Shown one piece after another: positions 24,079 through 30,949 of a DNA stretch of 64,000 bases; position 1 is the first letter of the stretch; each line of letters starts with the position of its first letter. A program made the translations under genes and the position numbers. The stretch comes from Ottowia sp. SB7-C50. GTDB taxonomy: Bacteria; Pseudomonadota; Gammaproteobacteria; Burkholderiales; Burkholderiaceae_C. Location: contig NZ_CP136995.1 in assembly GCF_033110285.1 (NCBI RefSeq), forward strand, positions 62,001 through 126,000, written 5' to 3'. The notes under the pieces are model-generated. The model was given only the letters and a program-made list of their open reading frames with translations. It did not search any database and was not told where the DNA came from.

Positions 24079-24287
24079 TGTTCGGTTTCAACGAAGAGCA
24101 GATCGCCTGGTTCGGCCTCACGATTGGCGTGGGCGCGTTCATGCTCTACATGGTCTTCATCATCGGGCACCTGGCCTGGGAAGCCAAGGCCGGCAAGTTC
24201 GGCACCTTCGTGCTGTTTCTGGCGCTGGGCTTCGGCATGGTGGGCTTCGTGGCCAAGATGCTGATCGAGTGGTTCATCGGCCAGTAG
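24078..24287 (+). CDS. DUF2788-like small membrane protein
   Basis: The 69-residue protein has two membrane helices (FGLTIGVGAFMLYMVFIIGHLAW and GTFVLFLALGFGMVGFVAKM, in parts) joined by a short charged loop EAKAGKFG. The sequence fits the DUF2788 family, found in beta- and gamma-proteobacteria without a known role. Its ATG overlaps the previous TGA. Confidence 0.8.
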   Translation: MFGFNEEQIAWFGLTIGVGAFMLYMVFIIGHLAWEAKAGKFGTFVLFLALGFGMVGFVAKMLIEWFIGQ

Positions 24288-24695
24288 GGCTGCCCCCGCC
24301 CGCCGCAAGACCCCCGGGACAAACCTGTGGATGACGCTGGCACAAGCCGCGGGTTGTCCACAGCGCGGCCGCCGGGCCGGCAGTTGTCCCCACTCGCGCG
24401 GCGCGGCGCCGGCGGCTTCTCCACATCCGGCGGCCTGCGCCAAGTGCGCGTCGCGCCTGGGCTTTTGCCTTCTGTCCACAAAACGGCAGGGCACCTACTA
24501 CGACTACTATCTATTCTTTAAAGAAAAAGAAACAAGTCAGCGCAGCGCCTCAAGGCAACGCCGGGCAGCCTGCCGCGCTGTTACAGCCGCGCACCGAAAG
24601 CCGTCTGGCCGCGCGCGGGCGACTGTTAAGATCGACCCGCTTTCTTCGCCCCCCGTTCCGCCCGTGCGGACTTCACCCGAGACGCCTTCGCGCCC
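24288..24695. other. Origin-like intergenic region: DnaA-box-like sites, DnaA-trio tract, AT-rich stretch
   Basis: This 408-bp gap holds five sites close to the DnaA box TTATCCACA: TGTGGATGA (24326-24334, reverse), TTGTCCACA (24354-24362), TTGTCCCCA (24384-24392), TTCTCCACA (24417-24425) and CTGTCCACA (24472-24480). The last is followed by a GC-rich spacer and then CTACTACGACTACTAT (24495-24510), which has the DnaA-trio periodicity (complement 3'-GAT GAT GCT GAT GAT). An AT-rich tract CTATTCTTTAAAGAAAAAGA follows. This order matches the basal unwinding element of bacterial origins. dnaA, rpmH and dnaN are not nearby. A sixth TTGTCCACA lies inside minC at 24870-24878. The minC promoter must also lie here. 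Confidence 0.55.
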
Positions 24696-25469
24696 ATGTC
24701 CGTCGCCCTCGCCGGTCGCAGCCCCCGCACTTTCGACATCAAGAGCGCCAGCCTGCCCTTGCTGGCGTTGCGCCTGAAGTCGCCCGACATCGACCTGCTG
24801 GCCGACGAGCTGCTGGCGCAATACGGCGAGATGCCCGACTTCTTCGAAGACGACGGCGTGGTGCTCGACTTGTCCACATTGGCCAACGACCAGGGCGACG
24901 CCGAGATCGACTTCCAGCGCGTGGGCGAACTGCTGCACGAGCGCCGCCTGCGCCTGCTGGCCGTGCGCGGCGGCAGCCCCGCCCAGCAGGACGCGGCGCG
25001 CGCCATCGGCCTGCTGCTGGCGCCCGACACGCGCGTGCAGACGGCGGCGCGTGTCGACGAACCGGCCGACCCGACGTCGGGCAAACCCGCGGCGCCGGTG
25101 GCGGCGCCCGACCTGCCTGCGCCCGGCGCGCTGGTCATCGACCGGCCGCTGCGCTCGGGCCAGCAGGTGTATGCGCGCGGGCGCGACCTGGTGGTGCTGG
25201 CCATGGTCAACCATGGTGCCGAGGTCGTCGCCGACGGCCACATCCACATCTACGCGCCGCTGCGCGGCCGTGCCCTGGCCGGCGCGCGCGGCTGGAGCGA
25301 GGCCTGCATCTTCGCGCGCGAAATGCGGCCCGACCTGGTGTCCATCGCCGGTGTCTATCGCACCAGCGAAGAGCCGCTGCCCGACACCGTGTGGGGCCAA
25401 GCCGCCATGGTGCGGCTGGCCAGCACCGACGCGGGCGACAAGCTCATCTTCGACCCCATCGCCGGCTGA
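24696..25469 (+). CDS. minC: Septum site-determining protein MinC
   Basis: MinC inhibits FtsZ polymerisation away from mid-cell. The 257 residues show the N-terminal FtsZ-inhibiting domain (FDIKSASLPLLALRL, DGVVLDLSTL), a Pro/Ala linker at about 115-145, and the C-terminal beta-helix GRDLVVLAMVNHGAEVVADG, HIYAPLRGRALAGARG, which binds MinD. First gene of minCDE, 62 bp before minD. The ATG at 24696 matches the start of homology. Confidence 0.95.
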   Translation: MSVALAGRSPRTFDIKSASLPLLALRLKSPDIDLLADELLAQYGEMPDFFEDDGVVLDLSTLANDQGDAEIDFQRVGELLHERRLRLLAVRGGSPAQQDAARAIGLLLAPDTRVQTAARVDEPADPTSGKPAAPVAAPDLPAPGALVIDRPLRSGQQVYARGRDLVVLAMVNHGAEVVADGHIHIYAPLRGRALAGARGWSEACIFAREMRPDLVSIAGVYRTSEEPLPDTVWGQAAMVRLASTDAGDKLIFDPIAG

Positions 25470-25531: not shown

Positions 25532-26344
25532 ATGGCAAAAATCATTGTGGTGACTTCCGGCAAGGGTGGCGTGGGCAAGACCACCACCAGTGCCGCCTTT
25601 GCTTCCGGGCTGGCGCTCAAGGGCCACAAGGTGGCGGTGATCGACTTCGACGTCGGCCTGCGCAACCTGGACCTCATCATGGGCTGCGAGCGCCGCGTGG
25701 TGTACGACTTCGTCAACGTGATCCACGGCGAGGCCAACCTGACGCAGGCCCTCATCAAGGACAAGCAGTGCGACAACCTGTTCGTGCTGGCCGCCAGCCA
25801 GACGCGCGACAAGGAAGCGCTGACGCGCGAAGGCGTCAAGAAGGTGCTGGACGACCTGGCCGCCATGGACTTCGACTACATCATCTGCGACTCGCCCGCC
25901 GGCATCGAAACCGGCGCGCTGATGGCCATGCACTACGCCGACGAGGCGCTGGTGGTGACCAACCCGGAAGTGAGCAGCGTGCGCGATTCCGACCGCATCC
26001 TGGGCATGCTGGGCAGCAAGACGCAGCGCGCCATCGACGGCGCCGAGCCGATCAAGGAGCACCTGCTCATCACCCGCTACAACCCCAACCGCGTGGCCGA
26101 CGGCCAGATGCTGAGCCTGGAAGACATCCAGGACATCCTGCGCATCAAGCTGATCGGCGTCATCCCCGAAAGCGAGGCCGTGCTGCAGGCGTCCAACCAG
26201 GGCCTGCCGGCGGTGCACTTGAAGGGCACCGACGTGGCGGGCGCGTATTCCGACGTGGTCGAGCGCTTTCTGGGCCAGGACGTGCCGCTGCGCTACATCG
26301 AGGCCGAGAAGCCCGGCTTCTTCAAGCGCCTGTTCGGGAGGTAA
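25532..26344 (+). CDS. minD: Septum site-determining ATPase MinD
   Basis: MinD is a membrane-associated ParA-type ATPase that recruits MinC and oscillates with MinE. The 270 residues include the deviant Walker A motif [37 protein letters not shown] (in parts), [14 protein letters not shown] (Walker B) and the C-terminal amphipathic membrane-targeting helix [12 protein letters not shown]. Length and motifs are standard. AAGGTGC precedes the ATG at normal spacing. Confidence 0.97.
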
Positions 26345-26349
26345 GCGGC

Positions 26350-26619
26350 ATGTCCTTCCTCTCATTTTTTCTCGGCGAGAAGAAGAAGACCGCCAACGTC
26401 GCCAAGGAGCGGCTGCAGATCATCCTGGCGCACGAACGCGCCGGCCGCCCCGCGTTTGCGCCCGATTACCTGCCGGACCTGCAGCGCGAGCTGATCGAGG
26501 TCATCAGCAAGTACGTCAAGATCGACCCGAAGGACATCAAGGTCAACCTGGAACGCCAGGACGACCTGGAAGTGCTGGAAGTGAAGATCGAGCTGCCCGA
26601 AAAAGCCAACGCGGGCTAG
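26350..26619 (+). CDS. minE: Cell division topological specificity factor MinE
   Basis: The 89-residue protein starts [20 protein letters not shown]. It has the N-terminal membrane-binding and MinD-activating helix ([16 protein letters not shown]) and the C-terminal topological specificity domain ([28 protein letters not shown]). It lies 5 bp after minD. Its stop codon is inside a short sequence, CTAGGAGTCTGCGCG, that recurs at two other gene ends in the window. Confidence 0.95.
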
Positions 26620-27478: not shown

Positions 27479-27582
27479 ATAGCTACGAAATAGATAGCTG
27501 AAACCGCGCATCCTGCTTGCGCAAGGCAGCGAAAAGACCGAGGCACTTCGCATCGGAGCCTTGTCTGGCGCAGACAAAACAG

Positions 27583-27694
27583 CCGGACGCAGAGGACGCA
27601 GAGATTTCGCAGAGGACGCAAAAAAAACCAACAAACATGCTTTTTGGCTGTTCTTTTGCGTCCTTCGCGGATCCTTTGCGTCCTTCGCGTACGG
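27583..27694. repeat. 112-bp inverted-repeat element, copy B
   Basis: The left arm CCGGACGCAGAGGACGCAGA (27583-27602) is followed by a second TTCGCAGAGGACGCAAA unit. The right arm is diverged (TTTGCGTCCTTCGCGTACGG, 27675-27694). Interior A/T runs are in the same orientation as copy A. A degenerate ATAGC/GCGCTTG repeat precedes it at about 27479-27535. Confidence 0.8.
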
Positions 27695-27734
27695 CTTTCG
27701 ATCTTGACGCCGCCGCACCCGGGCGCCCCCCCGT

Positions 27735-27766
27735 AAAAAACCCCAGCACGCAGGCCGGGGTTTTTT
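27735..27766. terminator. Bidirectional terminator
   Basis: AAAAAACCCC (27735-27744) and GGGGTTTTTT (27757-27766) pair perfectly across a 12-base loop. The flanking A and T runs allow use from either direction, between the DUF4124 gene and the convergent small exported-protein gene. Confidence 0.85.
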
Positions 27767-29660: not shown

Positions 29661-29763
29661 CCGGACGCAGAGGACGCAAAGGATTCGCAGAGGACGCAAA
29701 AGAAACAGCCAAAAGAAATTTTTTGGTTTTTTTCTGCGTCCTCTGCGGAATCTCTGCGTCCGG
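29661..29763. repeat. 103-bp inverted-repeat element, copy C (inverted relative to copy A)
   Basis: The left arm CCGGACGCAGAGGACGCAAA (29661-29680) is identical to copy A, and the right arm ends CTCTGCGTCCGG. The interior AAAAGAAACAGCCAAAAGAA is the reverse complement of the copy A interior, so the element is in opposite orientation. ATACCGAATA precedes it, as at copy D. It is followed at about 29798-29857 by an ATAGC/GCGCTTG-type repeat before aroG. Confidence 0.85.
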
Positions 29764-29857
29764 CTGTTGGATGGGTGCTGTCAAAGACACACAGTCCAAG
29801 CCATTTGCAGGCCCAGCGCTTGCCCCTCCAGCGCAGGCAGCTACTGAACCTATAGCA

Positions 29858-30949
29858 TCAACCGCGCGTCGCCCGGCGCGCCCGCACCGCCTCCGCCAGG
29901 CCTTCAAGCACCGGCACGGTCTGCGCGAAGCTGATGCAGGCGTCCGTCACCGACACGCCGGGCTTGAGCGGCTGGCCGGGCACGATGTCCTGGCGGCCTT
30001 CTTCCAGGTGGCTTTCGATCATCACGCCCATGACGCGGCCATCGCCCGCGGCCACCTGGGCGGCCACGTCCTTCGCCACCTCGATCTGCCGGGCGTGCTG
30101 CTTGCTGGAATTGGCGTGCGACAGGTCGATCATGACCTGCTCGCGCAGCCCGTTTGACTTCAGCAGCGCGCAGGCCGCGTCGACGTCGGCCTTGGAATAA
30201 TTGGGCGCCTTCCCGCCGCGCAGGATCACGTGGCAGTCGTCGTTGCCGCGCGTTTCAAAGATGGCGCTCTGCCCCATCTTGGTCAGGCCCAGAAAGGCGT
30301 GCGGCGACTGCGCGGCGACGATGGCGTCGGCGGCCACCTTCACGCCGCCGTCGGTACCGTTCTTGAAGCCGACCGGGCAGCTCAGGCCGCTGGCCAGCTG
30401 GCGGTGGCTCTGGCTCTCGGTGGTGCGCGCGCCGATGGCGCCCCAGCTCACCAGGTCGCTGATGAACTGCGGGCTGAGCAGGTCGAGGAATTCGGTGCCC
30501 ACCGGCAGGCCCAGCGCCAGCACGTCCAGCAGCAGGCGGCGCGCCATCTGCAGGCCTTCGTTGATGGCGTAGCTGCCGTCCAGGTGCGGGTCGTTGATGT
30601 AGCCCTTCCAGCCCACGGTGGTGCGCGGCTTTTCGAAGTACACGCGCATCACCACCAGCAGCTCGGCCGCGTGGCGCTCGCTTTCAGCCTTCAGGCGGCG
30701 CGCGTAGTCCAGCGCCTGGGCGTGGTCGTGGATGGAACACGGGCCGACCACCACCACCAGCCGGTCGTCGTGCCCCTGCAGCACGCGCGAGATCGCGCTG
30801 CGGCTGTGTTCGACCAGCGCCTGCGCCGCGTCGGGCGCGGGCAGCCATTCCTGGATCAGCGCGGGTGTGAGCAGCGGGCGCACCGCGCGGATGCGCAAAT
30901 CGTCGATGCGGGTGGTGTCGTGGGTGGACGGGTTGTCGATGTCTTGCAT
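29858..30949 (-). CDS. aroG: 3-deoxy-7-phosphoheptulonate synthase, class I (AroG-like)
   Basis: This enzyme condenses phosphoenolpyruvate and erythrose-4-phosphate in the first step of the shikimate pathway. The 363 residues carry the class I motifs VVVVGPCSIHDHAQALDYA, MRVYFEKPRTTVGWKG, PVGTEFLDLLSPQ, GARTTESQSHRQLASGLS and the metal-site regions MIDLSHANSSKQH and GVMIESHLEEGRQ. The N-terminal extension is that of feedback-regulated AroG/F/H isozymes. Which amino acid inhibits it cannot be told from the sequence. Confidence 0.95.
   Translation of the reverse strand: MQDIDNPSTHDTTRIDDLRIRAVRPLLTPALIQEWLPAPDAAQALVEHSRSAISRVLQGHDDRLVVVVGPCSIHDHAQALDYARRLKAESERHAAELLVVMRVYFEKPRTTVGWKGYINDPHLDGSYAINEGLQMARRLLLDVLALGLPVGTEFLDLLSPQFISDLVSWGAIGARTTESQSHRQLASGLSCPVGFKNGTDGGVKVAADAIVAAQSPHAFLGLTKMGQSAIFETRGNDDCHVILRGGKAPNYSKADVDAACALLKSNGLREQVMIDLSHANSSKQHARQIEVAKDVAAQVAAGDGRVMGVMIESHLEEGRQDIVPGQPLKPGVSVTDACISFAQTVPVLEGLAEAVRARRATRG

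Follow-up and report, generated by a model that had tools for sequence, protein, structure and literature searches.

The window analysed here, a stretch of 64,000 nucleotides, lies on the single 3,611,735-bp contig of an Ottowia genome (G000; Table 1) and includes the minC, minD and minE genes. Among the best 80 of 464 relatives of its MinC, the nearest ones with a name come from Ottowia species, and beside them are MAGs whose titles give only a higher rank. Upstream of minC the gene order is an LTXXQ-family protein, a DUF2189 membrane protein and a 68-residue ORF, and between the last of these and minC there is a gap of 408 bp with an overall AT content of 32%. Searches against Rfam gave no matches at gathering scores between 22 and 27 kb of the window. 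Downstream of minE, at about 27480-27750 and 29720-29900, two translated stretches that look alike by eye (RTQKK.., FASSA..LRPLRP) suggest a dispersed repeat.

Table 1. Features of the region upstream of minC and of its setting (positions are those of the window unless a contig is named)
Feature	Position	Strand	Remarks
Window	G000:C1:62001-126000		on the single 3,611,735-bp contig
dnaA	about 1-1380 of the contig		85 kb from the minC-side cassette
68-residue ORF	24080-24287	+	upstream of the gap; without Pfam match at E <= 0.001
DnaA box 1	24326-24334	-	TCATCCACA on the minus strand, 1 mismatch
DnaA box 2	24354-24362	+	TTGTCCACA, 1 mismatch
DnaA box 3	24384-24392	+	TTGTCCCCA, 2 mismatches
Putative origin cassette, as match to model R1	24415-24530 (G000:C1:86415-86530)	+	E 4e-16
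DnaA box 4	24417-24425	+	TTCTCCACA, 1 mismatch
CAAGTSCTTG remnant	24441-24450	+	here CAAGTGCGCG; family consensus at -31 to -22 from box 5; second half lost here
DnaA box 5, adjoining the trios	24472-24480	+	CTGTCCACA, 2 mismatches
GC-rich spacer	24481-24494	+	14 bp, 64% GC
DnaA-trio tract	24495-24509	-	CTACTACGACTACTA; minus strand reads 3'-GAT GAT GCT GAT GAT-5', third trio deviant; comparison tract as regards the third trio, CTACTACTACTACTA
AT-rich tract, presumed DNA unwinding element	24510-24536		78% AT
TAAGAT, likely -10 of a minC promoter	24627-24632	+	invariant or near-invariant columns; separate from the cassette
minC	24696-25469	+	Pfam MinC_N and MinC_C
minD	25532-26344	+	Pfam ParA/MinD-type ATPase families; between minC and minE
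minE	26362-26619	+	Pfam MinE

What distinguishes the gap is its DnaA boxes, for which all sites with at most two mismatches to the consensus TTATCCACA were taken. The five box-like sites with one or two mismatches noticed in the preliminary description are indeed present and span exactly 155 bp, and the elements that it described after them (a GC-rich spacer, then a trio tract, then an AT-rich stretch) are correct to the base. The 64-kb window as a whole has five sites with one mismatch and 47 with two, and a perfect box is absent from it. The highest box-cluster score, 11, is that of the gap, with a runner-up of 3, and neither this score nor five sites within 155 bp was reached in any of 300 second-order Markov simulations of 64 kb, i.e., the boxes cluster beyond chance, as they are expected to at an oriC. 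A further one-mismatch box (TTGTCCACA) is found at 24870-24878 of the window, within the minC coding sequence. The AT-rich tract has few equals of its length in AT content (28 of the window's 63,974 27-mers reach it) and, judged by its composition, would be the AT-rich element that an oriC carries beside its boxes. The pattern CACA-N5-20-CTACTACNACTA has a single occurrence genome-wide, in the minC gap, versus none in a reversed control. Taken together, the clustered boxes and the trio tract greatly exceed what chance would produce, and the genome contains no second such combination. The part of this array that runs from box 4 into the AT-rich tract is referred to below as the cassette.

An alignment of 16 sequences from the genus and its near relatives, all chosen for carrying the cassette (L047 being shorter at its 5' end), revealed invariant islands in otherwise diverged DNA. 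Every base but the third of box 2, the TTGT of box 3 and the CACA of box 4 are invariant in all 16, and the offset of box 4 is also kept in the family modules. The CTACTAC of the trio tract is equally invariant in these sequences, which had been selected for the cassette. Box 1 is the least conserved, CTGTGGAT occurring at the aligned place in 6 of the 16, with the others degenerate, shifted or not covered.

A sequence-only model of the cassette (R1, 119 positions) was built from 46 modules, among them the copy described here (L003), and the scores of this copy and its relatives are raised by their inclusion in the training set; at most 46 sequences contributed to the training, versus the 108 family genomes that the model matched. 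Against its own 3.61-Mb genome, R1 produced one match at E <= 10, the minC-side cassette. In the genus, a match was obtained in 26 of 29 genomes at E <= 0.1 (24 of them at E <= 1.4e-4), and in the family the cassette was found in 108 of 110 at E <= 0.01. R1 found no cassette in G126 and G138, two fragmented assemblies that are also the only ones of the 110 without a DnaA match. R1 replaced an initial pattern survey (at least 156 of 300 genomes) that coding-like sequences also matched. The locus is, as would be expected of an oriC, conserved across related genomes, and of the boxes and trios of the preliminary description, boxes 2 to 4 and the trio tract are kept in the 16-sequence alignment, and boxes 4 and 5 with the trios in the family modules.

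The layout of the cassette was surveyed in 74 entries from this and other genera, which represent 71 modules, as three are second registers. Because the modules were chosen by box and trio, the conservation of box 5 and the trios in these entries is partly due to selection, which played no part in how well box 4, the CAAG element and the A-run are conserved. In the 74 entries, box 4 is 55 nt from box 5, a run of A stands just before box 5, and the spacer that follows is 14 bp in 53 entries and 15-18 nt in 17 more, leading to trinucleotides and AT-rich DNA. This arrangement, in which 55 nt lead from box 4 to box 5 and another 14 to 18 nt to the trios and the AT-rich DNA beyond them, is common to all the locations of the cassette described below, including that beside dnaA.

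Such a layout is reminiscent of the basal unwinding system (BUS), which was established in Bacillus subtilis and has been predicted widely in bacterial oriCs; in the model given in the cited sections of PMC8287927, DnaA at the last box extends onto the trios of one strand and opens the duplex. With the BUS of those sections the cassette shares a DnaA box, a tract of 3'-GAT-5' trinucleotides and, between the two, a spacer that does not exceed 16 bp; AT-rich DNA comes next here. The box beside the trios (CTGTCCACA), at two mismatches and 14 bp, is within the two mismatches and 16 bp that define the system (PMC8287927). Unlike the BUS as set out there, the site has a two-mismatch box beside its trios and a third trio, 3'-GCT-5', that breaks the middle-adenine rule; set against the BUS, it is also 85 kb from dnaA. 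With two trios, the deviant one and then two more, the tract contains no match to the strict BUS pattern (.A.){3,}, i.e., at least three successive middle-adenine trios, and neither does the rest of the minC gap. Among 46 family modules, the rule is satisfied somewhere in 35 and failed by 11. That interruption is so common in a near-universal cassette suggests that the trio rule is looser than stated, and deviant trios were suspected by the authors of the rule themselves (PMC8287927, in the sections cited).

A CAAGW motif occurs upstream of the box in 43 of the 74 entries; a reversed control gave 3 of 74. CAAGTSCTTG with AT after it agrees with the IHF consensus when the latter is read backwards, and from this we infer that the CAAGTSCTTG element of relatives is an IHF-like site, a reading that stays tentative because only 10 of the 74 entries have a strict IHF consensus. 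The oriC of Escherichia coli has an unwinding element, the nearest box, an IHF site and the next box in that order, and the cassette has the same order of elements with different spacing. The E. coli oriC is itself said, in the cited part of PMC8287927, to have undergone major change. For the chromosome 1 oriC of Burkholderia cenocepacia, the account cited (PMC4948915) lists DnaA boxes together with an IHF site and an AT-rich block, and in this it is like the cassette; unlike the cassette, its elements are described as dispersed, and the authors of that account were uncertain of the exact origin.

The place of the cassette was tabulated for 107 genomes, using linear distances to the C-terminal domains of DnaA and MinC. 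For G109, G114 and G148 these distances are too large, as they were not taken round the circle, and the tabulation omits G078 (E 0.0028, 0.2 kb from dnaA), unlisted rows and the weakest extra rows of G119, G090 and G092. The oriC of a bacterium is usually sought at dnaA, the gene at which sequence records are often made to start (position 1). It had been stated at the outset that known beta-proteobacterial origins lie at dnaA, a generalisation that would hold for under half of the genomes mapped (45 of 107, or 46 with the double genome). The cassette is behind dnaA in 45 of the 107 genomes, no more than 5 kb from minC in 18, at both places in one and elsewhere in 43, the locations being nearly exclusive. 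Of the 43, 27 have the cassette on the same contig as dnaA at 6-459 kb, and 16 do not. In the 45 dnaA-side copies, 0.2-0.4 kb separates the cassette from the C-terminal domain of DnaA, which, by the tables, it follows on the 3' side and on the same strand without exception. In two loci (L153 and L154) the gap between dnaA and dnaN was seen directly to be their place. The dnaA-dnaN gap of the Ottowia genome itself has no cassette (R1 at E <= 10). As had been noted from the window, dnaA is absent from the minC site, its position being 85 kb away, and the usual, although not required, adjacency of oriC and dnaA does not apply here. In five members of the genus, cassette, minC and dnaA were all placed on one contig: in G000, G014, G003, G011 and G005, respectively, the cassette is 0.6, 0.6, 0.6, 0.7 and 7.1 kb from the MinC domain and 85, 138, 78, 300 and 505 kb from dnaA.

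The surroundings of minC were also scanned directly in the best 80 of 464 relatives (loci L044-L123). Of the 78 loci with at least 400 bp upstream of minC, 25 have a cassette less than 1 kb upstream by a strict scan, which misses deviant copies that are plain in the alignment, e.g., those of L047 and L069. Another 14 modules are situated farther from minC, in 12 of these best 80 loci; they had been considered a false-positive background, an interpretation that was dropped since they look complete. No cassette was found in the 19 Polaromonas-titled loci among the 80. Cassettes on both sides of minC were observed in L104, L084 and G087.

More than one cassette per genome is no rarity, as two or three were tabulated in 35 of the 107 genomes (e.g., G032, G060, G066, G108, G147 and G031) and one in the remaining 72. 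Among 35 neighbouring pairs on the same contig, 30 are 0.2-9.4 kb apart and 32 have the same orientation, and it is possible that these multi-cassette genomes have twin or composite origins. In G158, cassettes at C3:280155-280272 and 304597-304712 are 24 kb apart, one of them 2.6 kb from minC and the other behind dnaA, making this genome a candidate intermediate of origin relocation. In several genomes that have the cassette at dnaA, minC is just 5-13 kb off, and in G152, G148 and G151, which have it at minC, dnaA is 13-15 kb away (by linear distance, overstated for G148). The proximity of the two genes and the two copies in G158 suggest a short hop, presumably from dnaA to minC, by way of a stage with two copies such as that of G158.

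Based on its single copy in this genome, its near-universality in the family, a layout that is the same as that of the dnaA-side copy of other genera, and the empty dnaA-dnaN gap here, we consider that the minC-side cassette is very probably the chromosomal replication origin, oriC, of this Ottowia and that it has been relocated. From the sequences compared, we would put the probability of its being oriC at slightly under nine in ten. The preliminary description had offered several options (the true oriC, a relocated or second origin, or a DnaA-titrating site), and a true, relocated oriC is the best supported of them. There is a precedent for an origin remote from dnaA in chromosome 1 of Cupriavidus metallidurans CH34, where, in the part of PMC2864759 cited, the GC-skew transition is about 90 kb from dnaA and adjoins a 213-nt region with three perfect DnaA boxes; the minC-side cassette resembles it in its remoteness, and a dnaA-remote origin as such is therefore already known. 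In the topical literature, mainly open-access, no paper was found on a location at minC, a portable cassette or multiple cassettes, although DoriC may list the location.

Of the alternatives, the one that fares best, and which we nonetheless regard as unlikely, is that replication still begins at dnaA, in the rpmH-dnaA gap, with the boxes near minC acting as a DnaA-titration or timing site similar to datA. In the surrounding 800 kb, the minC gap is the top box cluster only narrowly, with a score of 11 versus 10 for the rpmH-dnaA gap, and the latter contains two perfect DnaA boxes, the sole perfect ones in the 800 kb read. Moreover, the rpmH-dnaA gap is the strongest cluster of G014, in which another place scores equal to the cassette and the third-position skew leans to the dnaA side (see below). 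However, the rpmH-dnaA gap is without a trio tract or cassette, and its perfect boxes are consistent with autoregulation of dnaA, which DnaA boxes before that gene fit. A titration site needs no unwinding element, and titration alone leaves the conserved trio tract, the AT-rich element and the fixed spacing unexplained. As to a datA-like site, which would bind DnaA strongly and have no unwinding function, the window is without a perfect box and has what appears to be a conserved tract of the unwinding type, and this may be read either way. In addition, the cassette is precisely what adjoins dnaA in the 45 genomes mentioned above, and it is missing from there in this one. A still less probable alternative is the use of two origins, with the dnaA region and the minC cassette both firing, an arrangement in favour of which are the 35 genomes with two or three cassettes, among them G158 with one at each of these places, but which is at odds with the single cassette of this genome at E <= 10. 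The least probable is that the boxes regulate the minCDE promoter, tying division to the level of DnaA, and that their resemblance to an origin is incidental: the trio tract is indeed 0.2 kb upstream of minC here and 0.16-0.31 kb upstream in the close relatives scanned, but the TAAGAT before minC is separate from the cassette and is kept in two cassette-free Polaromonas loci (L055 and L056), the cassette is reversed in eight of the nine Hydrogenophaga-titled loci that have it less than 1 kb from minC and is 4.2-4.4 kb past the start of minC in two of six Ramlibacter-titled loci (all of these among the best 80 of 464 relatives), and 88 of the 107 family genomes have it outside the 5 kb around minC.

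Strand composition was analysed in this genome and in relatives that were chosen before their skew was seen; the p values given are uncorrected, and the cassette position used for G031, G240, G208 and G267 is the midpoint of two cassettes. There was no significant step in GC skew in this genome (p = 0.38; 800 kb surveyed) or in G014 (p = 0.25; 400 kb surveyed). Five relatives were taken in which 51-84 kb separate the cassette from dnaA; four of them, G340, G031, G240 and G267, gave a significant step (p from 0.0005 to 0.024), and G208 did not (p = 0.15). In all five, the cassette falls inside the 90% interval estimated for the step, and this interval excludes dnaA in G340 (by 3 kb only), G240 and G267 and contains it in G031 and G208. 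The point estimates are less than 10 kb from the cassette in G240, G208 and G267, and 35 and 22 kb from it, toward dnaA, in G031 and G340, respectively. Third-position skew favours the cassette over dnaA by 2.5 log units in G240 and by 3.4 in G208 and is neutral in G267; in G031 and G340, cassette and dnaA are both well below the best point, with dnaA slightly favoured. In G014, it favours the dnaA side, the cassette being 6.9 log units down and dnaA 2.5, and this counts against a relocated oriC. Further measures were uninformative in this genome, i.e., third-codon-position skew with a transcription term, gene-by-gene strand classifiers (cross-validated AUC 0.48-0.56) and KOPS, whose cumulative minimum at 98.7 kb comes from only 37 versus 53 sites. 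Exact matches to the parS-type pattern GTTNCACGTGNAAC number three in the genome, all at G000:C1:51048-52154; dnaA is 51 kb from them and the cassette 35 kb, and by eye they are inside gidA/gidB-like genes. Strand composition, then, supports the cassette in some relatives, is silent or contradictory in the genus, and does not amount to proof.

If the minC-side cassette is oriC, its anatomy suggests how it would function. The five boxes would be bound by DnaA, and from box 5 an oligomer of DnaA-ATP would grow across the 14-bp spacer onto the trios of the minus strand and melt the AT-rich tract at 24510-24536, after which the helicase would load. In relatives, boxes 4 and 5 have the IHF-like site between them, and a bend at this site may bring the two boxes together; in this genome half of the site is eroded. 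As for its history, the ancestral cassette was probably behind dnaA, from where it would have been copied or moved to minC when that gene was about 5-15 kb away, with later rearrangements taking minC and the origin away from dnaA. A broader proposal, to which we would give even odds, is that the oriC of the family travels as a portable cassette, some 120 bp long, through duplication and subsequent loss, from dnaA to minC and to other loci, that multiple cassettes may all fire or may cooperate as a composite origin, and that the interrupted trio tract is an accepted variant.

For the genus, GC skew is too weak to reveal the place of the origin, and for the family, by the present survey, placing the origin based on dnaA would be wrong in 61 of the 107 mapped genomes. 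With its interrupted trio tract, the cassette offers a natural test of the strictness of the DnaA-trio rule. With a conserved cassette beside varied neighbours, and with genomes that have two copies of it, the relocation of an origin and the firing of twin origins become testable, and it is the multiple cassettes, in 35 of the 107 genomes, that represent the newest lead.
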